A DNA stretch of 64,000 nt from Rhodobacterales bacterium HTCC2255 (GTDB taxonomy: Bacteria > Pseudomonadota > Alphaproteobacteria > Rhodobacterales > Rhodobacteraceae). Shown here piece by piece: positions 9,260 to 63,156 of this stretch. Under the pieces are notes generated by a model. That model searched no databases, had not been told where the DNA came from, and saw only the letters and a list, made by a program, of their open reading frames with translations. The translations under genes and the position numbers were made by a program. Positions within the stretch are counted from its first letter, which is position 1; every line of letters begins with the position of its first letter. The stretch spans positions 965,495-1,029,494 of the forward strand of contig DS022282.1 in the NCBI GenBank assembly GCA_000153745.1. The letters run 5' to 3'.

Positions 9260-9285
9260 ATATTTTTAAGTATTATCTTTAATTA

Positions 9286-9636: not shown

Positions 9637-9651
9637 AATATAATTTTAAAC

Positions 9652-10551: not shown

Positions 10552-10570
10552 AGCCATTCCCCTTTTGTGT

Positions 10571-10601
10571 AAAAAAAGCGCACTAGTAATTAAGCGCGCT
10601 T
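10571..10601 (-). terminator. Intrinsic terminator after fhs
   Basis: AAGCGC (10576-10581) pairs with GCGCTT (10596-10601), and on the minus strand the stem is followed by seven Ts. It sits between fhs and folD, so the two genes probably have separate or attenuated transcripts. A T-run also flanks the other side. Confidence 0.75.
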
Positions 10602-10611
10602 AAATTTTTTA

Positions 10612-12288: not shown

Positions 12289-12426
12289 TTTGAGTCCCAT
12301 CAAAAAGAATTTCTTTGTTAGTTCTGACCTATTTTAACACTTAATGGACATTAAGTTTCCGACCTTATTAAATGTTTTATCGTCTTTAATGATGATTAGT
12401 TAGTTCAATCTTATCAGAGACATAAA

Positions 12427-12448
12427 AAAGCCCGCTTAAGCGGGCTTT
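12427..12448 (-). terminator. Bidirectional intrinsic terminator after ftsH
   Basis: GCCCGCTTAAGCGGGC (12430-12445) is a perfect palindrome flanked by A and T runs. It begins four bases after the ftsH stop codon, giving a strong stem plus T-run on the minus strand. Confidence 0.92.
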
Positions 12449-12451
12449 AAT

Positions 12452-46546: not shown

Positions 46547-47500
46547 TTAATTAAAATGATTCCTATACTTACTAGGAGTTTGATCAAATCGCATCTTAAA
46601 AGCGCGGGAAAATGCACTAACATTTTCATACCCTGACCTTAAAGCAACTTCATTGATAGGCTTTTGTGTCGCCTGTAAAAGATGCCTTCCAAATGATAAT
46701 CTTATGTTTAAATAAACTTTCTTTGGTGACTGCCCTAGATCTTTTAAAAAAAATCTATGTAATTGTTTAGAACTAATACCAATTTTGTTTGCAATATTCG
46801 GTATTGTTAAAATATCTTCAATATTTTTGTGCATTATTTCCAAAGCTTTTTGCACCTCTTGAATCTTACAAACGGTATTTGTTCTATACTCTTGAGGTAA
46901 ATCAGCTCCACTCAAAAATATAGAAGCAACGTCGAGTGCAACTGTGACACCATTAATTTCTCTTATGATTGACAGACTGAGGTCGAAAGCAGCCATTCCT
47001 CCACCACAAGTCCCTATATTTCCATCAAAAATATATTTTTGCCGTTCAACATTAACCTCTACAAATTCTTCTGAAAATTCATCAATAATATCCCAATGAG
47101 CTGTCGCACGATGATTATCTATTATACCAGCCCCAGCCATCATCCATGGACCAGAATCTAATCCTATAATATTTTTATATCGCTTCATTGCTGCCCGAAG
47201 CGCTCGCCTTGACGCCACACTATCATGTCTTCGAAAATCGTATGAAGCTATAATGAATAAAAAATCTGCTCGTTTAGTTTCACCAAATTTTTGATCAGGC
47301 ATTAACCTTAATTCACTGGAACTTTGAACAGACAATCCGTCAAGTGTTACAAAATTCCATTCATAAACATCATTTGCACTTAAGGTATTTGCAGCTCTGA
47401 AAGGCTCTAAACAGTTTGCCATGCAGTGATTTGAAAACCGATCATAAACTAAAAAATCGATAGTAATCGGAAAAGATTTGAGCATTGGTAAATTTTGCAT
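46547..47500 (-). CDS. cdhR: GlxA-family AraC regulator, probable carnitine-catabolism regulator
   Basis: Transcription factor of 317 residues. It has an N-terminal DJ-1/class I glutamine-amidotransferase-like domain (about 10-190, with GLDSGPWMMAGAGIID and the ATAHWDI segment) and a C-terminal AraC helix-turn-helix pair (about 215-317, IGISSKQLHRFFLKDLGQSP and GYENVSAFSRAFKMRF). This architecture is that of CdhR, GbdR and GlxA regulators of betaine and carnitine use. It is divergent from the dehydrocarnitine-cleavage gene with 75 bases between starts, supporting the CdhR role. The ligand is inferred from context. Confidence 0.85.
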   Translation of the reverse strand: MQNLPMLKSFPITIDFLVYDRFSNHCMANCLEPFRAANTLSANDVYEWNFVTLDGLSVQSSSELRLMPDQKFGETKRADFLFIIASYDFRRHDSVASRRALRAAMKRYKNIIGLDSGPWMMAGAGIIDNHRATAHWDIIDEFSEEFVEVNVERQKYIFDGNIGTCGGGMAAFDLSLSIIREINGVTVALDVASIFLSGADLPQEYRTNTVCKIQEVQKALEIMHKNIEDILTIPNIANKIGISSKQLHRFFLKDLGQSPKKVYLNIRLSFGRHLLQATQKPINEVALRSGYENVSAFSRAFKMRFDQTPSKYRNHFN

Positions 47501-47516
47501 ATCTTATGTCTAATAG

Positions 47517-47535
47517 TGCATACTCACTTAATGCA
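47517..47535. promoter_or_regulatory. Candidate operator between cdhR and cdhC
   Basis: TGCAT (47517-47521) and ATGCA (47531-47535) form an inverted repeat with a 9-base spacer in the 75-base divergent intergenic region. Its position fits an activator site; there is no independent support. Confidence 0.3.
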
Positions 47536-47575
47536 AGAGGATTACGATAATTTATAATAATCAAAGGATATTAAT

Positions 47576-48484
47576 ATGCCCCTCTCAATGAACTCAAAAG
47601 TATTCATCACTTGCGCAATCACAGGCTCTGGAAGCTCGCAGGACCGAAGTCCTCATGTACCAAGAAGTCCAAAAGAGATTGCTGAAAGTGCTATAGCAGC
47701 TGCAAAAGCTGGTGCTGCAATTGTTCACTGCCATGTCAGGGATCCTGAAACAGGTGTGCCATCACGTGACTTGAAGCTTTATCGTGAGGTTACTGACCGC
47801 GTTAGAGATTCTGAAGTAGATATGGTTCTGAATCTAACAGCGGGAATGGGCGGTGATATGGTTTTTGGATCTCCCGACAGACCTTTACCACTTTCAAATT
47901 CAACAGATATGGCTAGTGCAGAAGAACGTGTAGCACATATAGCCGAATGTTTACCTGAAATTTGCACCCTAGATTGTGGAACAATGAATTTTGCAGAAGC
48001 AGACTATGTGATGACAAATACACCCGGCATGTTGGAAGCCATGGGGTCGATGATGGAGAGCTTAGGAGTAAAGCCAGAAATTGAAGCCTTTGATACAGGG
48101 CATTTATGGTTGGCCAAAAATTTGGTGGAAAAAGGAATATTAAAATCTCCAGCACTTGTTCAATTATGTATGGGTATTCCTTGGGGTGCGCCGGATGATT
48201 TAAATACATTCATGGCTATGGTGAACAATGTACCAAATGACTGGAATTGGTCTGCATTTTCCATTGGTCGCAATGAATTACCATATGTTGCAGCATCAGT
48301 TTTAGCCGGTGGTAATGTACGTGTTGGACTAGAAGATAACTTATGGTTGGCTAAGGGCCAATTAGCTACAAATGAAGCACTAGTAGAACGCGCTGTAACA
48401 ATAATAGAAGCTATGGGCAGTTCAATCATGACCCCAGAAGAAACTCGCGAAAAACTAAATTTAGTAAAACGGTTACCCAAATGA
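47576..48484 (+). CDS. cdhC: 3-Dehydrocarnitine cleavage enzyme (BKACE family)
   Basis: Zn-dependent beta-keto acid cleavage enzyme of 302 residues. In carnitine degradation it splits 3-dehydrocarnitine with acetyl-CoA into betainyl-CoA and acetoacetate. The metal ligands are visible as H-x-H in VHCHVRDPETG (His51 and His53) and Glu in GLEDNLW; LNLTAGMGG and CTLDCGTMNF are further BKACE motifs. AAAGGAT precedes ATG 47576. First gene of the operon, divergent from the GlxA-type regulator. The family has many substrate classes; the neighbouring carnitine dehydrogenase-thioesterase fusion makes dehydrocarnitine the best choice. Confidence 0.87.
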   Translation: MPLSMNSKVFITCAITGSGSSQDRSPHVPRSPKEIAESAIAAAKAGAAIVHCHVRDPETGVPSRDLKLYREVTDRVRDSEVDMVLNLTAGMGGDMVFGSPDRPLPLSNSTDMASAEERVAHIAECLPEICTLDCGTMNFAEADYVMTNTPGMLEAMGSMMESLGVKPEIEAFDTGHLWLAKNLVEKGILKSPALVQLCMGIPWGAPDDLNTFMAMVNNVPNDWNWSAFSIGRNELPYVAASVLAGGNVRVGLEDNLWLAKGQLATNEALVERAVTIIEAMGSSIMTPEETREKLNLVKRLPK

Positions 48485-49245
48485 GTAAAAAGCGAGTAGT
48501 CATAACTGCAGGAGCTGCAGGAATTGGCTTGGTCATAGCAAAAAACTATCTTGCAGAAGGCGCAAAAGTTGCAATTTGTGATATTGATCCAAACGCGATC
48601 CAAACATTCAAAAAGAAATACCCCAATTCACTAGCTATGTGTGCAAATGTAACTAACGAACAAGAAATGGATGATTTTTTTACTGCATGCAATGAATTTT
48701 TAAATGGTGTTGATGTTGTAATCGCTGGTGCTGGTATAGGTGGTCCTGCAGCATTAATTGAAGATTTAAATTACTCAGACTGGAAAGATACACTCGCCAC
48801 AACATTGGACGGTACATTTTTATTAGTTCGATGGGCCGCAAAACATATGCGCAAAAATAAATCTGGCTTGGTAATTCTTTTGTCATCATCTGCAGGATTG
48901 TTCGGTTACCCCTATCGCAGTCCATATGCCGTAGCAAAATGGGGGATTGTAGGATTAACAAAAACATTAGCTATGGAAATGGGAAGCGATGGCATTCGTG
49001 TAAATTGCATATGCCCTGGAGCTGTAGAAGGTGATCGGATGGACCGGGTAGTGCAAAATGAAGCTAAGGCGAGAGGTGTTGATGAGCAAAAAGTACGCGA
49101 TGATTATGTTTCGGCTGTATCATTGAAAACATGGGTTACTGCTGATGACATCGCGAATATGATTCACTTTTTAGATAGTCCGTCTGGCATGAAAATCTCT
49201 GGTCAAGCTTTGGCCGTTGATGGCCACACAGAGGCTATTACTTAG
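48481..49245 (+). CDS. Short-chain dehydrogenase/reductase in the carnitine operon
   Basis: Classical SDR of 254 residues: cofactor motif TAGAAGIGLVIA, Asp38-type residue in ICDIDPN suggesting NAD preference, AGAGIGG, catalytic Ser in ILLSSSAG and the Y-x3-K pair in SPYAVAKWG. The start overlaps cdhC by 4 bases. Because L-carnitine oxidation is assigned to the next gene, this one may be a D-carnitine dehydrogenase or a 3-hydroxybutyrate-type dehydrogenase using the acetoacetate released by CdhC. The sequence alone does not decide. Confidence 0.8.
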   Translation: MSKKRVVITAGAAGIGLVIAKNYLAEGAKVAICDIDPNAIQTFKKKYPNSLAMCANVTNEQEMDDFFTACNEFLNGVDVVIAGAGIGGPAALIEDLNYSDWKDTLATTLDGTFLLVRWAAKHMRKNKSGLVILLSSSAGLFGYPYRSPYAVAKWGIVGLTKTLAMEMGSDGIRVNCICPGAVEGDRMDRVVQNEAKARGVDEQKVRDDYVSAVSLKTWVTADDIANMIHFLDSPSGMKISGQALAVDGHTEAIT

Positions 49246-49289
49246 CATTAAAAAAAACTTAATTAAGACATTTATAAAATGAGAAAAAA

Positions 49290-50723
49290 ATGGAAAAAAA
49301 AGCAGCAATAATTGGTGGTGGTGTTATTGGTGGGGGTTGGCTTGCAAGATTTTTGCTTAATGGATGGGATGTAAATTTATATGATCCAGATCCTGAATCT
49401 GAGCGCAAAATAAAAGCAGTTTTAGAAAATGCACGGCATGCTTTGCCAATGTTGTATGATGTCAATTTACCTACTGAAGGATCACTTAAGTTTTGTGAAA
49501 ATATAAAAGATGCAGTTGATGGAGCTACTTGGATCCAAGAAAGTGTGCCTGAGAGATTGGCCCTCAAACATAAAGTATTTAATGAAATAATAAATTATGC
49601 ATCCTCTGATGCAGTTATTGGCTCTTCAACATCAGGGTTCAAACCATCAGAGCTTCAAGAAGAATCCATAAGACCTGATTCAATTATTGTTACACACCCT
49701 TTTAATCCAGTCTATTTGTTACCATTAATTGAGCTAGTTCCTTCCCCTGCAAATTCAGAAGCTATTATAAATAAAGCAAAAGAAATATTAACTTCCCTAG
49801 GAATGTTCCCATTACACGTTAGAAAAGAAATTGATGCACATATTGCAGATAGATTTTTAGAAGCTGTTTGGCGCGAAGGTTTATGGCTCATAAAGGATGG
49901 AATTGCCACAACTCAAGAAATAGATGATGCCATTCGATATGGTTTTGGATTGCGATGGGCTCAAATGGGATTATTCGAAACCTATAGGATAGCCGGTGGA
50001 GAAGAAGGAATGGCACATTTCATTTCTCAATTTGGTCCATGTTTGCAATGGCCATGGACTAAACTTATGGATGTTCCTGAACTTACTGATGAGTTAATTG
50101 AGCAAATTGCTAACCAATCTGATATGCAATCAGGACACAAATCTATTCGGGAACTAGAGAGATTACGTGATAACAATTTAATAGCTATTCTTCGTTCATT
50201 AAAAAATGAAAATACAGCTGCAGGTGCTTTAATTAATAAACATGAACAAATAATAAAACCAGAATTGCCTTCAGAATATAATGGCCCCATTACCACCATC
50301 AATAGAGTTATTCCAAACGATTGGACAGACTACAATGGACATATGAATGAAAGCAGATACGGACAAATTTTTTCTGATGCTGCTGATATAATTATGAAAA
50401 CAGTGGGGGCAAATGAAGCATACATTGCATCTGGACTAAGCTATTTTACCGTAGATATTTCAATTAAGTTTCTAGCTGAGACCCACGCAGGATCAAACAT
50501 TCATGTGAAATCATTTATCCTTCAAGGCGAAGGAAAAAAAATGCGTTTATTCCATCAAATGTTTGGCGATGATGGTAATTTAATGGCTACTGGGGAACAA
50601 ATGTTAATTCATGTTAGCTTAAAAACAAGACGTGCATGTGAACCAAGAAAAGATGTTCTTACCAACTTAGAAAGAATTGCAGCTGCTCACAGTAAAATTG
50701 AAGATCCGAGGGGAGAAAAATAA
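49290..50723 (+). CDS. lcdH: L-carnitine dehydrogenase / betainyl-CoA thioesterase fusion
   Basis: Two-domain enzyme of 477 residues. Residues 1 to about 320 form a 3-hydroxyacyl-CoA-dehydrogenase-type fold (IIGGGVIGGGW, STSGFKPSEL, THPFNPVYLLPLIELVPS) that oxidises L-carnitine to 3-dehydrocarnitine with NAD. Residues from about 335 form a hotdog thioesterase with DYNGHMNESRYGQIF near 347, which would release glycine betaine from betainyl-CoA. In pseudomonads these are separate CdhA and CdhB proteins; the fused form is known in rhizobia. The stop overlaps the next start by one base (TAATG). Confidence 0.88.
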   Translation: MEKKAAIIGGGVIGGGWLARFLLNGWDVNLYDPDPESERKIKAVLENARHALPMLYDVNLPTEGSLKFCENIKDAVDGATWIQESVPERLALKHKVFNEIINYASSDAVIGSSTSGFKPSELQEESIRPDSIIVTHPFNPVYLLPLIELVPSPANSEAIINKAKEILTSLGMFPLHVRKEIDAHIADRFLEAVWREGLWLIKDGIATTQEIDDAIRYGFGLRWAQMGLFETYRIAGGEEGMAHFISQFGPCLQWPWTKLMDVPELTDELIEQIANQSDMQSGHKSIRELERLRDNNLIAILRSLKNENTAAGALINKHEQIIKPELPSEYNGPITTINRVIPNDWTDYNGHMNESRYGQIFSDAADIIMKTVGANEAYIASGLSYFTVDISIKFLAETHAGSNIHVKSFILQGEGKKMRLFHQMFGDDGNLMATGEQMLIHVSLKTRRACEPRKDVLTNLERIAAAHSKIEDPRGEK

Positions 50724-51883
50724 TGAATTTTGGATTATCACAAGAGCAAGAAATGATCGTTGATACTGTACGTGATTTTGTTGAAAAAGAAATTTACCCT
50801 CATGAAGCTGAAGTAGAACGAACGGGAAATGTTCCTATAGAATTAGGCCAATCAATAAAACAAAAAGTTATAGATTTGGGTTTTTATGCCTGTAACTTTC
50901 CTGAAAGTGTGGGTGGCGCAGGTTTAAGCCATCTTGATTTTACACTTGTTGAGAGAGAACTAGGTAGAGGCTCTATGGCCTTAACTCATTTTTTTGGAAG
51001 ACCTCAAAATATTCTTATGGCGTGTCGAGATGAACAAATAGAGCGCTATCTTCTACCAGCAGTAAAAGGTGAAATTACAGATGCATTGGCCATGACTGAA
51101 CCAGATGCAGGAAGTGATGTTCGCGGAATGAAATGCAGCGCTATATCCGATGGCTCAGATTGGATTATTAATGGATCAAAACACTTTATATCTGGTGCTG
51201 AGCATGCTGATTTTTTCATAGTATTTGTTGCAACTGGTGTTGACGAAACACCGCGAGGTCCAAAAAAACGGATTACTACATTTCTAGTAGACCGCGGAAC
51301 AAAAGGCTTTGAAGTTCGAAATGGATACAATTCAGTTAGCCATAAGGGATATAAAAATTGCATTTTGGACTTTGATAACTGTCGCTTACCAAAAGAGGCT
51401 GTTTTAGGCGAAATTGATGGTGGTTTTGCCGTAATGAATGAATGGCTTTATGCAACAAGAATAACAGTTGCAGCATTTTCAGTTGGTCGAGCTAGAAGAT
51501 GCTTTGATTATGCACTTAATTATGCTGCAGAACGAAAACAATTTGGGCAAGCAATTGGAAAATTCCAGGGCGTAGGCTTTCAGATTGCTGATATGATAAC
51601 AGATATAGACGCTGCAGATTTATTGACATTAAAATCTGCTTGGATGCTTGATCAGGGACAACCATCAAATCGAGAAATCGCAAGCGCAAAAGTATTTGCC
51701 TCAGAAACTTTAGCAAGTGTAACTGATAAAACATTACAAATATTTGGTGGGATGGGTTTAATGGATGATTTTCCTATTGAGCGGTTTTGGAGAGATGCCC
51801 GAGTAGAACGTATCTGGGATGGAACATCTGAAATTCAGCGCCATATAATTAGTCGTGAATTACTTCGCCCATTGGGTGCATAA
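50723..51883 (+). CDS. Acyl-CoA dehydrogenase, probable gamma-butyrobetainyl-CoA dehydrogenase
   Basis: FAD enzyme of 386 residues expected to oxidise gamma-butyrobetainyl-CoA to crotonobetainyl-CoA. Family motifs are LAMTEPDAGSDVRGMKCSA and WIINGSKHFISGAEHADF, YAAERKQFGQAIGKFQGVGF and FGGMGLMDDFPIERFWRDA. The position of the catalytic base in many family members (E in YEGT) is Asp366 here (WDGTSE). It is too short for DmdC (about 590 residues), which excludes that role. Placement between carnitine dehydrogenase and CaiD-like genes gives the substrate inference. Confidence 0.82.
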   Translation: MNFGLSQEQEMIVDTVRDFVEKEIYPHEAEVERTGNVPIELGQSIKQKVIDLGFYACNFPESVGGAGLSHLDFTLVERELGRGSMALTHFFGRPQNILMACRDEQIERYLLPAVKGEITDALAMTEPDAGSDVRGMKCSAISDGSDWIINGSKHFISGAEHADFFIVFVATGVDETPRGPKKRITTFLVDRGTKGFEVRNGYNSVSHKGYKNCILDFDNCRLPKEAVLGEIDGGFAVMNEWLYATRITVAAFSVGRARRCFDYALNYAAERKQFGQAIGKFQGVGFQIADMITDIDAADLLTLKSAWMLDQGQPSNREIASAKVFASETLASVTDKTLQIFGGMGLMDDFPIERFWRDARVERIWDGTSEIQRHIISRELLRPLGA

Positions 51884-53920
51884 ATGAATAACCTTGGAAG
51901 CTTATTACATCCCAAATCTATTGCCGTAATAGGTGGTGGATCATGGTGTGAAAATGTTATTGAACAATGCAGGAAAATGGACTTTCAGGGTGCTATTTGG
52001 GCAGTTCATCCCAAACGTACCGAAATCAATGGAATTACCTGCTTCAAAACTGTGGAAGATCTTCCATACGGACCAGATGCAAGTTTCATAGGCGTAAATA
52101 GATTTACAACAATTGAAGTAATAAAATCATTAAATTCCATAAAAGCAAAAGGTGCTGTTTGTTTTGCAAGTGGGTTTTCAGAGTCTGTGTCAGAAGATGC
52201 AAAGAGTGCTGATTTAGAACGCCAGTTAGTACTGGCTGCTGGCGAAATGGCTATCTTGGGTCCAAATTGTTATGGGTTTATAAACTACCTTGATGGGTCA
52301 CTTCTTTGGCCAGATCAGCATGGTGGCGAACGGGTAAAAACGGGTGTAGCCATTATTACCCAATCCTCGAATATTGCTATCAATTTAACAATGCAAAAGC
52401 GAGGACTTCCAATTGCTTTTATCTCTTCTGTTGGGAACCAAGCTCAAGTCAGTTTAGCAGAAATGGCTACTGAATTTTTGAAAGATCCACGTGTAACAGC
52501 TTTAGGGCTTCACATTGAAGGGATTAAAGATGTTGTTGAATTTGAAAGAATGGTACATATCGCCAACAATCTAGGAAAACCAATAATTATATTAAAAGTT
52601 GGAAGCTCCGATCAGGCGCAAGCTGCAACGATTTCCCATACTGCATCAATCGCTGGAAGTAACGCTGGCGCAACTGCTTTATTCAATCGTTTGGGTGTGG
52701 TTCAAGTGCAAAATCTAACCATATTTTTAGAAACATTAAAATTAGCACATGTAGTTGGGGAGCAACCAAATAATAAGGTCTTATCAATGTCTTGTTCTGG
52801 AGGTGAAGCAAGCCTGATGGCTGACATAGGGCAGGCAGTAGGAATTAATTTCCCACCACTGAGCAAAAATCAATCTGCAAGGTTGCGAAATACCTTGGGA
52901 AAAATGGTAAAATTAGCAAATCCTTTAGATTACCATACTTATATTTGGGGTAATTGGGAGGCAATGACCCAAACTTTTATTGCTGCACTAAAAGATTCAG
53001 ACTGCATTGGTTTATTAGTTTTAGACTTCCCACGCATTGATCGATGTGATCCACAAATGTGGGTTGATGTCATTCCTTCCCTTGTTGAGGCAAAAAACAA
53101 AACAGGATGCCAGATTGGAGTTGTTGGTTCCATTTCAGATACCTTACCAGAAAAGATTGCAAAAGAATTATTAGAAAAAGGTATTATTCCGTTTGGTGGT
53201 ATCGAAAGTGCTTTAGATTCCATTGCCAAATTCGCAACTTATTCAAAAATGAAATCTGAAAATATTTTACCACCAATCATCCCATTAAATTTAAAAGTAT
53301 TAACTGAAGCGACAGCAAAAAAAATGCTTGGCGAATTTGATATCCAACTACCAATTTCACAAACGGTATCTAATTATGAAGACATCAAAGATGCTGCAAA
53401 TAATGTTGGGTTCCCAGTTGTTTTGAAAGGCGAAGGTAGCGCCCATAAAACCGAAGCAGGACTTGTTGCGTTAAATTTACAAAATCAAACTGATATCCTT
53501 AATGCTGCAAAAGTTATGCCAAGCGAAACATTTTTAATAGAAAAGATGATTGCTGATAGTTTAATAGAATTGTTAGTTGGAGTAGTTTTAGATGAAGCTC
53601 ATGGTTATGTTTTAACAATTGCTTCAGGAGGAAAGCTCACTGAAATATTCGATGATAAAATTTCTTTATTAATACCCGCAAATAATGAAGACATTTTAAA
53701 ATCATTAAAAACACTCAAAATGTGGCCATTGTTTTTAGGGTATAGAGGTGCACCATCTCCCGATATAAATTGCATATTAAAAACAATTCAAAATGTTCAA
53801 AATTTCGTTATTTCTAATCATGGGAAAATATCAGAAGTTGAAATCAACCCACTCATATGTAGAGAACTAGATGCCCTTGTAGCTGATGCACTAATAAAAA
53901 TAGGAGAAAAAAATGACTGA
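51884..53920 (+). CDS. ADP-forming acyl-CoA ligase, probable gamma-butyrobetaine/carnitine CoA ligase
   Basis: Single-chain member of the nucleoside-diphosphate-forming acyl-CoA synthetase family (678 residues). It has a CoA-binding Rossmann domain (about 1-130, KSIAVIGGGSW), flavodoxin-like ligase domains with GPNCYGF, QSSNIAINLTMQKRGL, and SHTASIAGS carrying the likely phospho-His, and a C-terminal ATP-grasp domain (about 460-678, PVVLKGEGSAHKTEAGLVAL, IEINPLI-like VEINPLI). It directly follows the acyl-CoA dehydrogenase stop (no gap). It probably activates gamma-butyrobetaine, replacing the CaiB CoA-transferase or CaiC AMP-forming ligase of enterobacteria. The substrate is inferred. Confidence 0.8.
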   Translation: MNNLGSLLHPKSIAVIGGGSWCENVIEQCRKMDFQGAIWAVHPKRTEINGITCFKTVEDLPYGPDASFIGVNRFTTIEVIKSLNSIKAKGAVCFASGFSESVSEDAKSADLERQLVLAAGEMAILGPNCYGFINYLDGSLLWPDQHGGERVKTGVAIITQSSNIAINLTMQKRGLPIAFISSVGNQAQVSLAEMATEFLKDPRVTALGLHIEGIKDVVEFERMVHIANNLGKPIIILKVGSSDQAQAATISHTASIAGSNAGATALFNRLGVVQVQNLTIFLETLKLAHVVGEQPNNKVLSMSCSGGEASLMADIGQAVGINFPPLSKNQSARLRNTLGKMVKLANPLDYHTYIWGNWEAMTQTFIAALKDSDCIGLLVLDFPRIDRCDPQMWVDVIPSLVEAKNKTGCQIGVVGSISDTLPEKIAKELLEKGIIPFGGIESALDSIAKFATYSKMKSENILPPIIPLNLKVLTEATAKKMLGEFDIQLPISQTVSNYEDIKDAANNVGFPVVLKGEGSAHKTEAGLVALNLQNQTDILNAAKVMPSETFLIEKMIADSLIELLVGVVLDEAHGYVLTIASGGKLTEIFDDKISLLIPANNEDILKSLKTLKMWPLFLGYRGAPSPDINCILKTIQNVQNFVISNHGKISEVEINPLICRELDALVADALIKIGEKND

Positions 53921-54698
53921 AAGTCCAATCAAAACAATTCAAGACGGTCATGTTTTAGAAGTCATTTTAGATCGACCAAAAGCTAATGCCATAGATCTAA
54001 AAACAAGCAGAATTATGGGAGATATTTTTGCAAGTTTTAGAGACAATCCAGAACTCCGTGTAGCTATAATTACAGGAGCTGGCCCAAAATTTTTCTGCCC
54101 AGGATGGGATTTGAAAGCTGCTGCGGATGGTGACGAAGTAGACGGTGATTATGGCCAAGGTGGTTTTGGAGGACTTCAAGAACTAAAAAATCTAAACAAA
54201 CCCGTTATTGCTGCAGTAAATGGCATTTGTTGTGGAGGTGGATTAGAGCTGGCATTATCTGCAGACATTATTCTTTCTGCAGAGCATGCCCAATTTGCTT
54301 TACCAGAAATAAACTCAGGAACAGTTGCTGATGCAGCTTCAATAAAATTACCAAAGCGTATTCCTTATCACATTGCAATGGAAATGCTATTTACAGGAAG
54401 GTGGATTGATGCAGAGGAAGCTGCACGTTGGGGATTAATAAATCAAATTCACCCTGCAGAAGAATTAATGAATGAAGCCCGAAAGATGGCTAAAATATTG
54501 GCCGCAGGTCCACCTTTAGTTTACGCTGCAATTAAAGAAGTTGTTCGTGAAGCCGAGAACATGAAGTTTCAGGATGCATTAAACACTATAACATCAAGTG
54601 AGCTTCCCACTGTGAAAACTCTTTATACATCAGAGGATCAACTTGAAGGTGCAAAAGCATTTTCAGAAAAGCGTAAACCAGTTTGGAAAGGCAAGTAA
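53913..54698 (+). CDS. caiD: Crotonobetainyl-CoA hydratase (CaiD-like)
   Basis: Crotonase-fold enzyme of 261 residues, strongly resembling E. coli CaiD along its length: LDRPKANAIDLKTSRIMG, LRVAIITGAGPKFFCPGWDL, KPVIAAVNGICCGGGLELAL, FALPEINSGTV and the C-terminal SEKRKPVWKGK. It would hydrate crotonobetainyl-CoA to L-carnitinyl-CoA, linking the CoA ligase and dehydrogenase upstream with carnitine oxidation. AGGAG stands 6 bases before ATG 53913, inside the end of the ligase gene (8-base overlap). Last gene of the plus-strand operon. Confidence 0.9.
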   Translation: MTESPIKTIQDGHVLEVILDRPKANAIDLKTSRIMGDIFASFRDNPELRVAIITGAGPKFFCPGWDLKAAADGDEVDGDYGQGGFGGLQELKNLNKPVIAAVNGICCGGGLELALSADIILSAEHAQFALPEINSGTVADAASIKLPKRIPYHIAMEMLFTGRWIDAEEAARWGLINQIHPAEELMNEARKMAKILAAGPPLVYAAIKEVVREAENMKFQDALNTITSSELPTVKTLYTSEDQLEGAKAFSEKRKPVWKGK

Positions 54699-54735
54699 CT
54701 CAAATAAAATTCCAGAACTAATCTTCGCGGGTAAA

Positions 54736-56337
54736 TCAGATATTATTTCTTAATTCATATTTCTGAATCTTACCTGTTGCAGTCTTTGGGAGTACTCCAA
54801 ATACAACCTTTTTAGGGCGTTTAAAACCAGCAAGATGATCGCGGCAAAAAGATATAATTTCGTTTTCAGTTACAGATTTTCCATCTTTTAATTCAATGAA
54901 AGCACAAGGTACTTCACCCCACTTTTCATCTTTCATTGCGACAACAGCAGCTAGAGCAACAGCCTCATGTCGATGTAAAATACCTTCGACTTCAACAGAT
55001 GAAATATTCTCACCACCTGATATTATTATGTCTTTTAATCTGTCCTTAACTTCAACATAGCCATTTGCATGCATTACGGCTAAATCTTCAGATCTAAACC
55101 AACCATCTGCAAAAGCTTCAGATGTTGCTTTTGGGTTTTTCAAATATCCCTTCATGACAGTATTGCCACGAATTAATATTTCTCCAAATGTTTCACCATC
55201 TGCTGGGACATCTATTCCGTTGGGATCAACTACACGCAAGCCATCAGTATGAACCATTCCTGCTCCTTGTCGTGATTTCATTATTGCACGTTGATCCTGC
55301 GGCAAATCATCCCAATCACTATTCCAAGTAGACATAACTGTGTGTCCGTATGTTTCAGTTAACCCGTAAACTTGCGTAACATTAAAGCCAAGTTTTTCAA
55401 TGCCTTCTAAAACTGCGGCTGGAGGTGGTGCACCAGCAGTCATTACATTTACTGTATAATTGAATTTTTTTCGGTCATTATCATTTGCATTTAAAATCAT
55501 TCCTAAAACTATTGGCGCACCTCCAAAGTGCGAAATGCCGTGTTCACTTATTGCATTGTAAATGACTGCAGGTGTAATAGCGCGCGTACATACAATGGTT
55601 CCAGCCAAAGCAGCCATAGCCCAACCATGGCACCATCCATTACAGTGAAATAACGGGACTGTATAAAGGTATTTTGGATGCCTTGGTAATCCCCAATCAG
55701 AAATTACTCCCATAGACATCAAATAAGCGCCCCGATGATGATAAACAACGCCTTTAGGGCGACCTGTTGAGCCTGAGGTATAATTTAGTGCAATTGCATC
55801 CCATTCATCTGTTGGCATTTCCCAGTTTGCACTTTCATTACCTAATTTAATAAAATCAGAATAATCAATTGTACCAATTCGATTTGGATTTGGATTGTCT
55901 TGCAAATCAGCGATATCAACTACAAGTACATCTCGTCCTTTAATTGCTTCTGCAGCCTGAGGAGCAAGTTCACCATCAACAATAAAAACCTTAGCTTCTC
56001 CATGATCAAGAATATATGCGATAGTATCAGAGTCTAACCGCGTATTTATAGTATTTAGAACGGCCCCAGACATAGGAATACCAAAATGCGCTTCAATCAT
56101 TTCAGGAGTATTAGCAGCGAGGATTGCAACTGTGTCACCTTTCCCAACCCCATTCTTGTTTAATGCAGATGCTAATTGAATTGATCGTTTATATAATTGC
56201 GACCAGCTATAATTACGACTTTCATAGATTACGGCATCACGATCTGGAAACATTAATGCAGTGCGTTTTATAAACGAAAGCGGTGATAATGCTGCATGGT
56301 TTGCAGAATTTTTTTCAAAATCGTCATAAATACTCAT
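54736..56337 (-). CDS. AMP-forming acyl-CoA ligase, possible methylmercaptopropionate-CoA ligase (DmdB-like)
   Basis: ANL-superfamily ligase of 533 residues. ATP motifs are YTSGSTGRPKGV (186-197), QVYGLTETYG and the RSEDLAVMHANGYVEVKDRLKD stretch (given in parts), with the catalytic lysine in TATGKIQK at Lys523. The active-site segment FHCNGW places Trp at 235. As I recall, Trp235 and Lys523 are functional residues in a characterised DmdB of about the same length, so numbering and context (divergent dmdA 5 kb away on the same island) favour DmdB. Other short- or medium-chain fatty acids, or carnitine-type substrates, are not excluded. AGGAGG precedes ATG 56337. Confidence 0.78.
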   Translation of the reverse strand: MSIYDDFEKNSANHAALSPLSFIKRTALMFPDRDAVIYESRNYSWSQLYKRSIQLASALNKNGVGKGDTVAILAANTPEMIEAHFGIPMSGAVLNTINTRLDSDTIAYILDHGEAKVFIVDGELAPQAAEAIKGRDVLVVDIADLQDNPNPNRIGTIDYSDFIKLGNESANWEMPTDEWDAIALNYTSGSTGRPKGVVYHHRGAYLMSMGVISDWGLPRHPKYLYTVPLFHCNGWCHGWAMAALAGTIVCTRAITPAVIYNAISEHGISHFGGAPIVLGMILNANDNDRKKFNYTVNVMTAGAPPPAAVLEGIEKLGFNVTQVYGLTETYGHTVMSTWNSDWDDLPQDQRAIMKSRQGAGMVHTDGLRVVDPNGIDVPADGETFGEILIRGNTVMKGYLKNPKATSEAFADGWFRSEDLAVMHANGYVEVKDRLKDIIISGGENISSVEVEGILHRHEAVALAAVVAMKDEKWGEVPCAFIELKDGKSVTENEIISFCRDHLAGFKRPKKVVFGVLPKTATGKIQKYELRNNI

Positions 56338-56346
56338 TATAGCCTC

Positions 56347-58680
56347 CTAATTTCTTATAGCTTCACCAGTATCCAATAGACTGGAAATGCGAACAATAGT
56401 CTCTGGTGTTTTTGCCAAATTTAGAAATGCACGTCGTTCTCGATCATACATATCTTGTTCAGATACAGTAATAGAATTTTCGTCAGCACTGTTAACTACA
56501 ATTTCAGCAACTTGCATTGCTACTGTCTTATCATGAGGAAAAAATAAACCTTCATGTATTCCATTTTGCATGAAGTCAGACATTTTTTTAATCATAGCAG
56601 ATCCAGGAAGTTCAAAAACTGGTTCAATTGGTGGTAGATATTCTTTTTGTAATTTTGCCATCTCAGTACTAGCAACATGCATTAATTTATCACGGTTTAG
56701 AACCTCAACATCTCTATCTTTTAGATAATATTGCATCCGTGCTGAAAGATCTGGACTTGTACCAATTTGCCCATAGCCAATTTGCATCCATGTATTCCAA
56801 GAAGCTTTCTCCCAATCTCCTGTTGCTTGATACCAGCGTAATAAAGTTTCTTTAACTCCACCCCCACCTGGCACAACACCAACCCCAGTCTCAACTAAAC
56901 CAAAAACTGTATTTGTATGTGCAATAAGTTTGTCACAATGCGCTAAAACTTCAAAACCACCACCAATAGATAATCCTGAAGGTGCACCAATAACAGGTAC
57001 AGGCGAATATTTAAGAGCTTTAACAGATTGTTGGAAACTATTTAAAAATTCATCAATTCCATTCCAGTTGGAAGCTTCAATAAGTGAGCGGAAACGGTTC
57101 AAATCAACTCCTGCTGAGAAATGCTGTGCATCATTGTGAATTATAATACCATCCCCATGATTTTTAGCTGCTGCTAGAACTATTTCCATAGATTCTGCCG
57201 TGAGTGCATTTGCCTTGGAATGGAATTCGAGTAATCGCAAATTTCCTTTTAATTCGTACAAGCTAGCTGCAGAATTGGTTAACAATGGTGTCATGCTTTG
57301 TTTAGTCATATGAAAACGAATTGTATTTTCAGGCAAAATAACAGGTGAATAAAATGTATTATTTTCAAAATTTAATACATTTAAACTAGACTTACTTACA
57401 GTATAAAACGGTCCAATTTCCTCACTTAAAGATATGGCTTTTGGTACAGTTAAACCTGCCTCTTTAATTAATTTTACAACTACATTTGCTCCTAAAGCAT
57501 CAATCAATTCGAATGGACCACGGACCCAATTAAAACCAAGTTTCATTGCATCATCAATATCTTGAGGACTAGATGTTACTGCTGGTATTAAATCTGCAGC
57601 ATAAGCTAAAGTACGGGCTAAAAATCGTTTGCAGAAGGTTGCATGGTTATCAGAACCATTAATCATAACTACTAAAGTTTCGTCCCCAGCAGCTTGTGCA
57701 TCAGCAGCTTTTTGAGCACTTATTGGTAAAGTCTTCTGCCGAAGGCGTATTTTGCCATTAGTCAAATCAACTGCACAATTTGTTTTACTTTCTATTCGAT
57801 AAAAACCACCTTTACCTTTATCACCTGTAAATCCATTTTGTATCATATCTCTAATCAAGGGCATTACAGGATTATTTAATGTACCAACTTCATGAAACAA
57901 ATCATCTTCTGGAAGGATATCACCTAGTGTGTTTACAACATCAGACATCAAATCAATTCCAATTAGATCGTATAATCCAAAAACACCAGTTTTAGGTATA
58001 CCCATTGGCCTACCCATTAAGGCATCAGCTTCTTCAACAGTAAGCTTATTTTTTGATGCTTCATCCATTCCAACTTGAAGTGCAAATACACCAACTCTAT
58101 TGCCTAAAAATCCAGGAGTATCATTACATCGAACAACACCTTTTCCCATGACCCGATCATTATAATCTGCAAGTTGGTCCATTATTTTTTCGTCAGTATT
58201 CGCACCTCGAACGAGCTCTAATAAACGCATGTATCTCACTGGGTTAAAATAATGCGTAATTGCAAATCGTTTTTGAAAATCTTCAGGCATATCTTCAACC
58301 AACAAAGAAATTGGTATTGTCGATGTATTTGAGGTTACAACACAGTTAGGATTTATAACTTCATTAAGTCGTTTATATAACTCTTTTTTAATATCTAAAC
58401 GTTCTACAATTGCTTCAACAATCCAATCACAATTTGCCAATTTATCAAAGTCATCACGAATATTACCTACTTCAATTAAATCAATGCGAGATTTATGAAC
58501 AAGTGCAGGTGGATCAGATTTTAAAAGTCTCTTTTTTGCATCTTTCAGTACACCAATAGGATCATCATCACGCGGCAAATCCATCAATAAAACTTTATTT
58601 CCTGAATTTGCAATTTGGGCAGCAATACCACTTCCCATTGTACCTGCACCTATAACTGCAATTTGTTTAAATTCTGGCAT
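56347..58680 (-). CDS. 3-Hydroxyacyl-CoA dehydrogenase / enoyl-CoA hydratase fusion (FadN-like order)
   Basis: Bifunctional beta-oxidation enzyme of 777 residues. The N-terminal half (about 1-400) is a 3-hydroxyacyl-CoA dehydrogenase: VIGAGTMGSGIAAQIANSG, TSNTSTIPISLL, THYFNPVRYMRLLELV and GFLGNRVG. The C-terminal part (about 465-700) is a crotonase domain with VIGAPSGLSIGGGFEVLAHCD (in part) and FGLVETGVGVVPGGGGVKE. The dehydrogenase-first order is that of FadN rather than FadB/FadJ. It lies 9 bases upstream of the acyl-CoA ligase, so both likely act on the same acyl-CoA. Confidence 0.88.
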   Translation of the reverse strand: MPEFKQIAVIGAGTMGSGIAAQIANSGNKVLLMDLPRDDDPIGVLKDAKKRLLKSDPPALVHKSRIDLIEVGNIRDDFDKLANCDWIVEAIVERLDIKKELYKRLNEVINPNCVVTSNTSTIPISLLVEDMPEDFQKRFAITHYFNPVRYMRLLELVRGANTDEKIMDQLADYNDRVMGKGVVRCNDTPGFLGNRVGVFALQVGMDEASKNKLTVEEADALMGRPMGIPKTGVFGLYDLIGIDLMSDVVNTLGDILPEDDLFHEVGTLNNPVMPLIRDMIQNGFTGDKGKGGFYRIESKTNCAVDLTNGKIRLRQKTLPISAQKAADAQAAGDETLVVMINGSDNHATFCKRFLARTLAYAADLIPAVTSSPQDIDDAMKLGFNWVRGPFELIDALGANVVVKLIKEAGLTVPKAISLSEEIGPFYTVSKSSLNVLNFENNTFYSPVILPENTIRFHMTKQSMTPLLTNSAASLYELKGNLRLLEFHSKANALTAESMEIVLAAAKNHGDGIIIHNDAQHFSAGVDLNRFRSLIEASNWNGIDEFLNSFQQSVKALKYSPVPVIGAPSGLSIGGGFEVLAHCDKLIAHTNTVFGLVETGVGVVPGGGGVKETLLRWYQATGDWEKASWNTWMQIGYGQIGTSPDLSARMQYYLKDRDVEVLNRDKLMHVASTEMAKLQKEYLPPIEPVFELPGSAMIKKMSDFMQNGIHEGLFFPHDKTVAMQVAEIVVNSADENSITVSEQDMYDRERRAFLNLAKTPETIVRISSLLDTGEAIRN

Positions 58681-58683
58681 ATT

Positions 58684-59481
58684 TTAACTCTTAGTAAAAA
58701 ATGTGCGTAAAGCACGGTTAACTTCTTCTGGATGTTCTGAGGGCAGCATATGACCAGCGTTTTCAATTACGGTAATATTGTTTGTGTTAAGAGCTTCTGC
58801 TGCTTTTAAGCCAAATTTCATGGGTGTCATTTTATCTTTTTGAGCAATAATAATTTGTGAAGGGCACGAAATATTATCAGCTGCAATATGGCCATTTGTG
58901 TAATCAACGCATGCCTTGAGATCAGCATGTAATGCTCCTAATTTGTTTGCAGCCATTAACTGAACGCCAAAATTAAGATGATTTTGGCCTGGCATTGTAT
59001 TGTCGTGATTATGACCTTCAGGGCCATGCCCCCAATCAATCATTGCATCAATTGCAGATTGTTCTTTATTTTTTGCCATTTCAATTAAATTACTATTAAC
59101 AGGAATTGATAGTGCTGTTGCTACTAATGATAATTGTGAAACTCTATCTGGATATCGATATGCCATATCCAAGCCGATCAAACCACCTTGAGAATGTCCT
59201 ATAATCTGTACTTTTTCTATACCGAGTTCATCCATCAGGGCTATTTGCCAATCAGACATTGCCTCAATAGTAGCCAAGGGAGCCCCAGATGATAAACCAT
59301 GAGATGGCATATCTGCAGATATTACAGGCCAACCTCGGTTCGCAAAAAATCGCCCTTGCAAAATAAATGAAAGATGACTTTGCCCAGATCCATGTATGAA
59401 CCATAAAGGGTGACCTTTTATTTCAAATGCTCTTCCCCCAGTTGACGCAAATATTACTTCATTATTTATATTAATTTTCAT
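58684..59481 (-). CDS. Alpha/beta hydrolase
   Basis: Cytosolic alpha/beta-fold hydrolase of 265 residues with oxyanion region FIHGSGQSHLSF, nucleophile Ser in IIGHSQGGLIGLDMAYRYPDR (one region) and catalytic His in NAGHMLPSEHPEEV; an Asp in IIAQKDKMTP completes the triad. It might be an esterase or thioesterase, but no substrate is indicated. It is 3 bases after metY and 3 bases before the dehydrogenase/hydratase fusion, so clearly part of the metY-led operon. Confidence 0.82.
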   Translation of the reverse strand: MKININNEVIFASTGGRAFEIKGHPLWFIHGSGQSHLSFILQGRFFANRGWPVISADMPSHGLSSGAPLATIEAMSDWQIALMDELGIEKVQIIGHSQGGLIGLDMAYRYPDRVSQLSLVATALSIPVNSNLIEMAKNKEQSAIDAMIDWGHGPEGHNHDNTMPGQNHLNFGVQLMAANKLGALHADLKACVDYTNGHIAADNISCPSQIIIAQKDKMTPMKFGLKAAEALNTNNITVIENAGHMLPSEHPEEVNRALRTFFTKS

Positions 59482-59484
59482 AGC

Positions 59485-60780
59485 TTAGCTCCTTGCTTTT
59501 GAAGCGCGCTTTAATGCCTGTTCAAAATCTGATTTCAAATCATCAAAATCTTCTAAACCAACTGAAATTCGCAACATATCATCGGTTAATCCAGCAGCTT
59601 TCATTGCTTCAGGACTCAAATGGCTTTGAGTGGTTGATCCTGGATGTATAACAAGCGTTTTTGCATCACCAACATTTGCAAGATGTGATGCGACTTGAAC
59701 ACTTTCTATAAAAGATTGACCTGCTTCACGCCCCCCCTTTAAGCCACATGCTATTACTGACCCTGCACCTTTTGGCATAAGACGTTTAGCAACTTCATAA
59801 TCTGGATGTTCGGGTAATGTTGGGTGTTTAATCCAGGAAATACTTTCATGACTAGATAAAAAGGCTAACATTTTTTTAGTATTTTCTATGTGTCGATCCA
59901 TGCGTAAGCTTAGTGTTTCAATACCTTGCATTAGGTGAAAAGCGTTAGTCGGGGAGAGGCATGGTCCAACATTATACATACCTTCTGTTCGCACGCGATT
60001 AATAAATGCTGCAGGACCAAACTCTTCATATAAATTCACTCCTTGGAAACCAAAATGTGACTCAGTTAAAGTTGGAAACCTATCGTTTTGACCCCAGTCA
60101 AAATTGCCACCATCAACGACTATACCTCCCAATGCAACGCCATGGCCACCCATCCATTTAGTAAGAGAATGTATAACTATATTTGCTCCATTTTTTAACG
60201 GTTTTAGCAAATATGGCGTATTAAATGTTGCATCAATAACTAATGGAACTCCAGCATCATTAGCAATCTTACCAACACGTGTAATATCCATTATGTCTAA
60301 GCCTGGATTGCCAATAACTTCTCCAAATACCATTTTTGTATTCGGCTGAATAGCTTCTGCAAAAGCTTCAGGATCGTTAGGAGCAACAAACGTCGTAGTA
60401 ATTCCATATCTTGAGAGCGTATGCTGAAATAAATTAATATTAGCACCATACATTTGAGATGAAGACACAATATGATCTCCTGCAGAACACAATGCTAATA
60501 CAGTTACAAACAAAGCAGCCATTCCAGATGATGTTGCAACTGCACCAATTCCCTCATCTAATGCTGCTACACGTTGCTCAAGTACGGCAACAGTTGGGTT
60601 TGATATTCTTGAATATAAATGGCCGCCTATTTCCAAATTATATAATGCGGCGGCGTGCTCTGAGTTTTTAAAAACATACGATGTTGTTTGATGAATTGGA
60701 ACTGCAGCAGATCCATGGCGTTCATCTGGTGTAAAGCCAGCATGCAAACTTAAGGTATCAAATTTATAATCACCCGTCAT
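59485..60780 (-). CDS. metY: O-acetylhomoserine aminocarboxypropyltransferase (O-acetylhomoserine sulfhydrylase)
   Basis: PLP enzyme of 431 residues joining O-acetylhomoserine with sulfide to make homocysteine, or with methanethiol to make methionine directly. It shows TLSLHAGFTPDERHGSAAVP, the PLP lysine in HSLTKWMGGHG, NPTVAVLEQRVAALD, and the C-terminal VIHPGSTTQSHLSPEAMKAAG. These are MetY rather than cystathionine-synthase features. AGGAA precedes ATG 60780. It leads a four-gene minus-strand operon and is divergent from dmdA, whose pathway ultimately yields methanethiol, a plausible substrate. Confidence 0.94.
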   Translation of the reverse strand: MTGDYKFDTLSLHAGFTPDERHGSAAVPIHQTTSYVFKNSEHAAALYNLEIGGHLYSRISNPTVAVLEQRVAALDEGIGAVATSSGMAALFVTVLALCSAGDHIVSSSQMYGANINLFQHTLSRYGITTTFVAPNDPEAFAEAIQPNTKMVFGEVIGNPGLDIMDITRVGKIANDAGVPLVIDATFNTPYLLKPLKNGANIVIHSLTKWMGGHGVALGGIVVDGGNFDWGQNDRFPTLTESHFGFQGVNLYEEFGPAAFINRVRTEGMYNVGPCLSPTNAFHLMQGIETLSLRMDRHIENTKKMLAFLSSHESISWIKHPTLPEHPDYEVAKRLMPKGAGSVIACGLKGGREAGQSFIESVQVASHLANVGDAKTLVIHPGSTTQSHLSPEAMKAAGLTDDMLRISVGLEDFDDLKSDFEQALKRASKARS

Positions 60781-61031
60781 TCTATATTCCTATTTAAATA
60801 ATTCTTTATACGAATTCCGATTATACGCACATTATGTCAATAGACCTAGCTTTTTTGTTTCTAAAATGACCCAACGTTACAATTGATCGAATCTCCAATT
60901 TGGATAAATGCTCAAAAATCAAATCTGGTATCCAGTCGAGTGTGTCACTTAAAAAGTCGCAAAAAGCTATGCTATCTTGATAAATATATAATACGAAAAA
61001 TAATATCATATGAATTTTAGGAGGTTCATTT
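60781..61031. promoter_or_regulatory. Divergent control region of metY and dmdA
   Basis: This 251-base non-coding region serves both genes. It contains a TCCAA/TTGGA dyad with one central base (60894-60904), an AGTG/CACT dyad (60939-60949) and a TATAAT at 60987-60992 upstream of dmdA. AGGAGG lies 8 bases before the dmdA ATG. I looked for, and did not find, a SAM-II or SAM-V riboswitch pattern. Confidence 0.45.
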
Positions 61032-62165
61032 ATGGCTAGTGCAATGATTTTCCCATCAAGGCGTTTGAGAGCAACGCCTTTTACATCTCGAGTATCTAAA
61101 TTGGGTGTTTCAGGCTTTACTGTTTACAATCATATGTTGTTGCCAACTGTATTTGAAAGTTTGCAAGAAGATTACAAACATCTAAAAGAATATGTACAAA
61201 TGTGGGATGTATCTGTTGAACGCCAAGTACAATTACTTGGTAAAGATGCTCATAAATTAGCATGCATGATATCTGCTAGAGACCTTACTAATGCACAAAC
61301 TGGTCGTTGTTATTATGCCCCAATTTGTGACCAAAGTGGGGCAATAATTAATGATCCTATAGCGCTTAGACTAGCTGATGATAAATACTGGTTTTCGATT
61401 GCGGACAGTGACTTATTATTATGGGTCCAAGGTATTGCCTTGGGTTTAGATCTAAATGTAGAAATTTGTGAACCAGATGTCTCTCCATTAGCAATACAAG
61501 GGCCAATGGCGGAAGATTTGATGGTTGATGTTTTTGGTGCAGAAATTAGAAATATAAAATTCTTTCATTTTAAAGAATTTCCATTCAATGGGCGAATGTT
61601 GAATATAGCAAGATCAGGTTGGTCGAAACAGGGTGGATTTGAAATCTATTTAAACGACTCTCAGCTTGGTCCGGAATTATGGGATACAATATGGGAAAAA
61701 GGTGAGAAATATAATATTAGGCCAGGTTGTCCTAACCTAATTGAAAGAATAGAAGCTGGCCTTCTATCTTATGGTAACGATATGAACCGTGAAGATTCGC
61801 CATTAGAAATTGGATTGGAAAAATACATATCGCTTGACTCAAATGTGGATTTCATTGGTAAAAAAGCACTCCTTAAGCAACGTAAAGATGGTATAAAAAA
61901 ACGTTTGTTGGGAATTGAAATAGATGGTTCTGAAATGCCACCCCTTTCAATGCCAGAAGAAGTTTTTAAAGATGGTAAAAAAATTGGTATAGTTACTTCT
62001 GCTGTTTTTTCACCTGATTATAATGGCAATATTGGTTTCGCCATGATCGAAGCTTCAAATGCAACTGCTGGCACAGAAGTATCAGTGGATTCAAAAGCAG
62101 GAATTCGAAAAGGAAAACTTTGTGAAATAGGAGATTTTTGGTCTCAAGTTCAATCAAAAAATTAG
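61032..62165 (+). CDS. dmdA: Dimethylsulfoniopropionate demethylase
   Basis: THF-dependent enzyme that removes one methyl group from DMSP, giving 3-methylmercaptopropionate and 5-methyl-THF. It belongs to the GcvT fold family but carries the DmdA-specific signatures I recognise: FPSRRLRATPFTSRV, YNHMLLPTVFESL, PLAIQGPMAEDLM, RSGWSKQGGFEIY and especially CPNLIERIEAGLLSYGNDM. The 377 residues are near the family length of about 370. The GcvT glycine-cleavage protein is excluded by these motifs. ATG 61032 follows AGGAGG. It is divergent from metY; the 5-methyl-THF formed would connect to the folate enzymes earlier in the window. Confidence 0.93.
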   Translation: MASAMIFPSRRLRATPFTSRVSKLGVSGFTVYNHMLLPTVFESLQEDYKHLKEYVQMWDVSVERQVQLLGKDAHKLACMISARDLTNAQTGRCYYAPICDQSGAIINDPIALRLADDKYWFSIADSDLLLWVQGIALGLDLNVEICEPDVSPLAIQGPMAEDLMVDVFGAEIRNIKFFHFKEFPFNGRMLNIARSGWSKQGGFEIYLNDSQLGPELWDTIWEKGEKYNIRPGCPNLIERIEAGLLSYGNDMNREDSPLEIGLEKYISLDSNVDFIGKKALLKQRKDGIKKRLLGIEIDGSEMPPLSMPEEVFKDGKKIGIVTSAVFSPDYNGNIGFAMIEASNATAGTEVSVDSKAGIRKGKLCEIGDFWSQVQSKN

Positions 62166-63057: not shown

Positions 63058-63156
63058 CGTCTTCTCCTATTTGGATGTTATGTTCTTGATGTAAGTTTAG
63101 ATTTAATTAAGGTAGTACGAAATTCAAACAAGTAAACTTTAATATTCAGGTTATTG

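Follow-up and report, generated by a model that had tools for sequence, protein, structure and literature searches.

Carnitine-type and dimethylsulfoniopropionate-type gene sets lie tail to tail in Rhodobacterales bacterium HTCC2255 and in one clade of its genus

The joined locus and its occurrence in other genomes

We analysed a stretch of 64,000 nucleotides from Rhodobacterales bacterium HTCC2255 (contig DS022282.1; C1:965495-1029494 of our genome G000, 2.30 Mb), hereafter the window, which has a G+C content of 37.2%. In the window, a putative gamma-butyrobetaine and carnitine gene set (module A, 46547-54698) lies next to a putative dimethylsulfoniopropionate (DMSP) gene set (module B, 54736-62165; Table 1). 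An earlier note on this DNA had interpreted the pair as one functional 'onium' island for N- and S-methylated osmolytes. The coordinates of the open reading frames (ORFs) in 46547-62165 all match those in the note, and the family-level identities of the genes and their back-to-back arrangement within about 15.6 kb were confirmed. The modules are convergent, however, with separate divergent promoter regions, and in all likelihood they are two separate catabolic operons, neither dependent on the other, that a single event in the founder of a clade placed tail to tail. Substrates are assigned throughout from protein families and gene context.

Table 1. Genes and intergenic regions of modules A and B (positions in the window)
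Feature	Coordinates	Strand	Evidence or remark
GlxA/AraC-type regulator, GbdR/CdhR-like	46547..47500	-	NF052371 (GbdR) 168.8 bits, below cut-off 480
Putative divergent AraC/BKACE promoter region	47501..47575		75 bp; GTCTA core in 14/14 sequences, window included
BKACE, likely CdhC	47576..48484	+	PF05853 342 bits; best PDB match 3c6c, 275.6 bits
Short-chain dehydrogenase/reductase (SDR) oxidoreductase, optional member	48481..49245	+	PF13561/PF00106
L-carnitine 3-dehydrogenase (CDH) fused to C-terminal hot-dog thioesterase	49290..50723	+	NF005716 728 bits, over cut-off 592; 3HCDH_N, 3HCDH, 4HBT_2
Acyl-coenzyme A (acyl-CoA) dehydrogenase, likely gamma-butyrobetainyl-CoA dehydrogenase	50723..51883	+	NF002885 174 bits, under cut-off 540
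Nucleoside diphosphate (NDP)-forming acyl-CoA synthetase, likely gamma-butyrobetaine/carnitine-CoA ligase	51884..53920	+	CoA_binding_2, Succ_CoA_lig, ATP-grasp_5
Crotonase, likely crotonobetainyl-CoA hydratase (CaiD)	53913..54698	+	NF002936 best family, 324 bits, under cut-off 500
A/B convergent junction	54699..54735		37 bp between stop codons; junction present in 7 genomes of the genus, that of the window among them
AMP-forming acyl-CoA ligase, PRK08162 type, likely methylmercaptopropionate (MMPA)-CoA ligase	54736..56337	-	NF006020 824.6 bits, over cut-off 677
3-Hydroxyacyl-CoA dehydrogenase/enoyl-CoA hydratase fusion, FadN order	56347..58680	-	777 amino acids; 3HCDH_N, 3HCDH, ECH_1
Alpha/beta hydrolase, putative thioesterase-like role	58684..59481	-	Ser-Asp-His motifs; PF00561/PF12697
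O-acetylhomoserine (OAH) sulfhydrylase, OAHS	59485..60780	-	NF006004 651.4 bits, over cut-off 636; would convert methanethiol to methionine
Divergent OAHS/dmdA promoter region	60781..61031		251 bp between divergent genes
DMSP demethylase DmdA	61032..62165	+	NF009133 520.6 bits, over cut-off 410; best PDB match 3tfh, E 1.9e-113

Among 33 genomes of the genus, 20 encode a DmdA above the family cut-off, 29 a CDH above it, and 19 both. Modules A and B are joined in seven of these 19 (G000, G002, G007, G022, G023, G027 and G029), so the adjacency is not unique to HTCC2255, whereas uniqueness to this genome was part of what the earlier note had set against its own interpretation. In the other 12 the sets are apart, on separate contigs or, in G003, at a distance of 281 kb; the fetched dmdA locus shows no module A in 11 of them, and G004 was judged by contig positions alone. 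Each set is also found intact by itself. Module A lacks an adjoining module B in nine genomes (G001, G006, G009, G014, G017, G018, G021, G025 and G032), and module B lacks an adjoining module A in six (G001, G009, G014, G021, G025 and G032). In G001, the contig with module A runs from BKACE to about 0.6 kb beyond the crotonase; module B of this genome has no adjoining module A.

Of the 121 genomes in which gene positions were surveyed, 15 outside the genus have both a DmdA and a CDH over the cut-off, and none of these shows the adjacency; the genes lie 1.37 Mb apart in G041 and on different contigs in the other 14, although in fragmented assemblies an adjacency may be concealed by a contig break. 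In a class-wide survey of 385 genomes, 12 (G000 included) encode a DmdA that matches that of the window at E 1e-120 or better. The dmdA loci of the 11 others were fetched, in three cases as shorter pieces of 5.6, 12 and 16 kb limited by size or by the end of a contig, and in none does a CDH, BKACE or NDP-forming ligase gene lie beside dmdA. Likewise, no CDH or BKACE gene was found at seven other dmdA loci from six extra-genus genomes (L097, L098, L099, L100, L108, L165 and L167). Gene neighbourhoods, which the earlier note had proposed to survey, bear out the adjacency in more than one genome of the genus but not its recurrence outside.

The phylogenies bear on the origin of the junction. In an unrooted rpoB tree covering 28 of the 33 genus genomes, six joined genomes make up one side of a branch with a support of 98, and in a CDH tree of 47 rows, other genera included, the seven joined genomes form a clade with a support of 100, both values being SH-like approximate likelihood ratio (SH-aLRT) supports from a quick method. 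G005, G011, G020, G026 and G029 yielded no rpoB and are off the former tree. The joined state takes one change on the rpoB tree. Since the joined genomes form one clade, the junction arose once, through a rearrangement in the common ancestor of this part of the genus, to which it is confined.

The modules were also compared for the common enzymes and regulator sites that the earlier note had envisaged. When 17 window proteins (43604-63897) were compared pairwise at E 1e-3, the sole match was that between CDH and the 3HCDH domain of the fusion protein (33% over 171 amino acids). The two crotonases show no mutual match at this threshold, and the ligases come from different superfamilies, NDP-forming ATP-grasp in module A and AMP-binding in module B. 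Both sets use CoA-thioester chemistry, and they have next to no homologous enzymes between them. The intergenic regions of the 47501-47575 and 60781-61031 types were compared in 12 genomes by their best ungapped similarity, with 200 shuffles each, and no similarity beyond that of the shuffles was detected in 11 of the 12. The possible exception is G029, where 6 of the 200 shuffles scored as high as the real pair; the corresponding number is 28 in G007 and at least 74 in the other ten. On this comparison, a shared regulator site for the two modules was rejected.

Because modules A and B are convergent, they form neither one operon nor a single transcript with a common promoter. A single combined onium operon was rejected in both forms considered: the genes are not co-oriented and have no common motif in 11 of 12 genomes, and their association is that of one clade, absent from the 15 extra-genus genomes and the 11 distant loci, rather than one that has recurred independently.

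Predicted routes of the two gene sets

Module A would lead from gamma-butyrobetaine and carnitine to glycine betaine. In the first steps, gamma-butyrobetaine would be ligated to CoA and dehydrogenated to crotonobetainyl-CoA, which would then be hydrated to carnitinyl-CoA, with release of L-carnitine. CDH would oxidise L-carnitine to 3-dehydrocarnitine, and BKACE, which from its operon context is likely to be CdhC, would cleave this compound with acetyl-CoA to give betainyl-CoA and acetoacetate. Finally, betainyl-CoA would be hydrolysed to glycine betaine by the thioesterase domain fused to CDH, a putative betainyl-CoA thioesterase. The SDR is possibly an enzyme of D-carnitine or 3-dehydrocarnitine; it was not found in module A of G032, G018, G021, G014, G006 or G017.

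The crotonase, the acyl-CoA dehydrogenase and the regulator score below the cut-offs of the carnitine and betaine families, and therefore their roles rest on context; for the dehydrogenase, the crotonobetainyl-CoA dehydrogenase family (NF002885) is not the best family either. This context is largely retained in the 16 other genus genomes with BKACE. An AraC-type regulator lies divergently next to BKACE in 13 of them; at this position G017 has a 34% homologue and none was seen in G012, and the contig of G001 begins only with BKACE. The acyl-CoA dehydrogenase adjoins CDH, or is one gene off, in 15 of the 16, the exception being G012. In G017, a second AraC-type gene is located between CDH and the acyl-CoA dehydrogenase of module A (L102, 7973-13500).

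Module A shares BKACE/CdhC and carnitine dehydrogenase with the cdhABC-type carnitine operons of Pseudomonas aeruginosa, Sinorhizobium meliloti and Ruegeria pomeroyi, and adds to them the acyl-CoA dehydrogenase, the NDP-forming ligase and the crotonase, which would feed in gamma-butyrobetaine. Its three final steps agree with the known route for carnitine, which in P. aeruginosa involves carnitine dehydrogenase, BKACE and DhcAB (PMC12482172, accessible portion). The same portion reports that in S. meliloti one protein both oxidises carnitine and turns betainyl-CoA into glycine betaine, a dual activity that the CDH-thioesterase fusion resembles. CdhABC of R. pomeroyi is raised on N-osmolytes, according to the available part of PMC12478193. 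CDH and BKACE also stand in another marine alphaproteobacterial island, the Arctic SAR11 carnitine/choline island, which has in addition gamma-butyrobetaine dioxygenase, choline dehydrogenase and an ATP-binding cassette (ABC) transporter, and for which the accessible text names no dmdA (PMC12421898). We take module A as a further example of this known carnitine-catabolic kind.

In module B, the alignment of DmdA with 3tfh, which we take to be the Pelagibacter ubique enzyme, spans 361 residues. DmdA would demethylate DMSP to MMPA, from which the PRK08162-type ligase would make MMPA-CoA. Dehydrogenation of MMPA-CoA would fall to a DmdC-type enzyme encoded elsewhere in the genome; G000 has one PF12806-type acyl-CoA dehydrogenase of 590 amino acids (L113), a candidate that matches 6ijc, presumably the DmdC structure, at 423.6 bits and 8png nearly equally well at 415.7 bits. 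The fusion protein would hydrate the methylthioacryloyl-CoA, the alpha/beta hydrolase and/or the 3HCDH domain would clear the CoA product, and OAHS would trap methanethiol as methionine. Most likely, then, module B takes MMPA-CoA to methanethiol and methionine.

Relative to the DmdABCD pathway, this arrangement keeps DmdA and departs from it in the ligase, in the adjacent OAHS and in the hydratase step, which is likely to be carried out by the 3HCDH-crotonase fusion instead of, or beside, DmdD. The ligase was rejected as DmdB by NCBIfam, with 301.8 bits to NF005426 where the cut-off is 822, and no protein of G000 reaches this model (best 308.1). Among the PDB matches of the ligase, 1ult scores 265 bits, and 6ihk, which we assume to be the DmdB structure, is fourth with 220 bits.

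All 18 trio-type rows (the trio being OAHS, hydrolase and fusion) keep the His/Glu/Asn motifs of 3HCDH and the two crotonase Glu residues of the fusion, and the Ser, Asp and His motifs of the hydrolase and the pyridoxal 5'-phosphate (PLP)-lysine motif of OAHS are intact in the alignment; these motifs are presumed to be catalytic. The fusion motif positions are also conserved in four distant comparison fusions, and therefore they indicate competence rather than a special substrate. Two catalytic Glu residues are described for DmdD/ECH in the available part of PMC3660561, in which methanethiol leaves spontaneously once methylthioacryloyl-CoA has been hydrated, which leaves malonate-semialdehyde-CoA. 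The release of methanethiol would thus need no more than a hydratase domain. It is conceivable, although we consider it unlikely, that the fusion replaces DmdD and the methanethiol passes to the adjacent OAHS, which makes methionine from it, while the 3HCDH domain oxidises malonate-semialdehyde-CoA to malonyl-CoA (or the hydrolase cleaves it), so that all three carbons and the sulfur are retained. Were this true, the fusion-based branch would entail no loss as acetaldehyde, CO2 and methanethiol.

Module B is a more interesting lead than the junction. If it has been read correctly, some marine Rhodobacterales and other alphaproteobacteria would route DMSP sulfur straight into methionine without DmdD, which would bear on how much methanethiol escapes. 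For Ruegeria, the accessible portion of PMC7157515 states that direct capture gave only 33% and 50% of methionine in two species. The gene order also differs from the dmdA-acuI operon of Roseobacters, with which DmdA is shared: acuI follows dmdA in most of them, two exceptions being named among 26 dmdA-bearing strains (PMC3338564, as far as available), whereas here dmdA is followed by a binding-protein gene on the opposite strand and faces the OAHS-hydrolase-fusion-ligase set. No description of the dmdA-OAHS-hydrolase-fusion set or of a fusion-based branch was found in the titles and abstracts of a partial literature, supplements not covered. In three Antarctic bins, MMPA-assimilation genes lie beside dmdA, with no gene names given in the accessible text (PMC6383258); it is possible that these represent an earlier sighting of module B.

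Competing explanations

The trio genuinely forms a unit, and this unit and the ligase each occur on their own beside this type of DmdA. Module B faces dmdA in 13 of the 18 genus genomes whose dmdA neighbourhood was fetched (the window included; G004 is not among them). Of the 11 distant dmdA loci, two from another family (f117; G441 and G545) have the trio beside dmdA in the same divergent layout, and three (G433, G534 and G656) carry a protein related to the ligase there, with 58, 61 and 63% identity. A family survey of 295 genomes at E 1e-100 found the fusion with at least 63% identity in five (G000, G021, G350, G125 and G309) and with at most 38% identity in seven others. OAHS and the hydrolase adjoin the fusion in all three close extra-genus loci, and in none of the four distant fusion loci that were fetched out of seven.

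Several observations weigh against our reading of two catabolic operons joined once. In both modules, several proteins do not reach the equivalog cut-offs for the roles proposed for them. Module B is missing beside dmdA in 5 of the 18 genus genomes (G003, G012, G016, G018 and G031), and both the trio and the ligase are missing from 6 of the 11 distant dmdA loci. Conversely, no dmdA is present in the 20 kb fetched around the trio in G350, G125 and G309, and G125 lacks any DmdA over the cut-off; the link between trio and DmdA is therefore not a strict one. The junction of G029 spans a contig break, both contigs ending inside the acyl-CoA dehydrogenase, and the genome counts as joined only if the two are adjacent. 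Lastly, the junction is kept in all seven joined genomes although the flanks have changed. Over the 5 kb upstream, G027 has no similarity to the other six, and G000 has about 0.95 kb in common with five of them; downstream, the flank of G023 and G029 is unlike that of G027, G022 and G007, with G002 in between. Weak selection for linkage would account for this persistence, and so would chance.

The trio loci without dmdA, which make up three of the five among extra-genus trio genomes, would also be explained if the trio were unrelated to DMSP, handled some other methylthio or acyl-CoA compound and stood beside dmdA by inheritance. The neighbours of the trio in these genomes point the same way: it is convergent with a gene for an MTTB-family methyltransferase in G125 (L134, 8351-12231; 326 bits, below the trimethylamine cut-off of 525), in G350 the second gene past the fusion belongs to the PF02574 homocysteine methyltransferase family, and the scanned neighbours in G309 are cell-shape and unrelated genes. 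However, the same divergent layout beside dmdA recurs in the genus and in the two f117 genomes, four of the five trio genomes outside the genus have a DmdA over the cut-off, and OAHS is the expected methanethiol trap. We therefore regard this explanation as rather unlikely and keep module B with DMSP.

Less likely still is a recent import of module A as a carnitine island, with the junction as its insertion site. The flank upstream of module A does vary between joined genomes, but the CDH tree puts the joined clade with genus members G014, G021, G020, G032, G018, G009 and others. The CDHs of further genus members (G003, G031, G004, G016, G012, G010, G011, G015, G019, G030 and G017) fall elsewhere on the tree, so that a transfer at an earlier time, either between genus members or from outside, is possible.

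A functional onium island, in which selection keeps the sets linked because their enzymes or regulators work for trimethylammonium as well as dimethylsulfonium substrates, is very improbable, since its two supports, the junction retained in all seven descendants of one event while the flanks turned over and the CoA-thioester chemistry of both sets, are outweighed by the 12 genus genomes that keep the sets apart, by the lack of adjacency or of carnitine genes at the extra-genus and distant loci, and by a convergent, separately promoted layout with no shared site and with unrelated ligases. The combined-island interpretation is thus weak, and no description of a combined carnitine/DMSP locus was found in the titles and abstracts of the partial literature. 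Such an island would have implied common enzymes for nitrogen and sulfur osmolytes; the independence of the two sets keeps comparative studies from scoring them as one trait.

Flanking genes and other DmdA-like proteins

Upstream of module A, the segment 42699-46504 carries a leuCD-type hydro-lyase pair, an alpha/beta hydrolase and a LysR regulator. No leuC, leuD or LysR gene was detected in the stretch of at least 4.8 kb fetched past the AraC-type regulator in the six other joined genomes. Downstream of dmdA, a binding protein and an ATPase (62287-63897) resemble a polar amino-acid system in a family search, and a pair of this type was not found beside dmdA in G023 or G029. There is no transporter among the 15 ORFs composing 46547-62165. 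Scans for promoters and terminators were uninformative, the former giving 34 promoter-like sites where shuffled sequences gave 58.6, and the latter 11 terminator-like sites where 12.1 were expected by chance.

A DmdA scan of named genomes returned four loci, from two Rhodobacteraceae records, one Rhodobacterales record and one Rhodospirillaceae record at 50%, which are too few to serve as a survey. The nearest DmdA proteins among the named records, from Rhodobacteraceae/Rhodobacterales assemblies, are 88, 74 and 73% identical to that of the window.

DmdA homologues of other kinds were also seen. At L167 (G099, 9902-12500), a DmdA of another family has an adjoining, convergent 44% OAHS homologue without the rest of module B. 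In another genus, a DmdA-like gene below the cut-off (373 bits) lies 13.6 kb from a CDH above it (G056:C47:71405-87548). G000 itself encodes a second DmdA-like protein (L104, G000:C1:750001-770000, 8740-13440), which scores 392 bits, just under the cut-off of 410, and is 40% identical to that of the window. Its gene comes after an AsnC-type regulator and before genes for OsmC, a crotonase (PRK08139) and a PRK08162 ligase that is 51% identical to the ligase of the window. No clear DmdD is among the 60 PDB matches listed for this crotonase, no DmdD query having been run. DmdA-like proteins below the cut-off occur in 8 of the 12 genomes examined, G000 included, and those of the L104 type may act on a substrate other than DMSP. 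The whole genome of G000 (2.3 Mb) gives 15 GcvT-domain matches, a large set of enzymes of the folate-linked methyl-transfer type.

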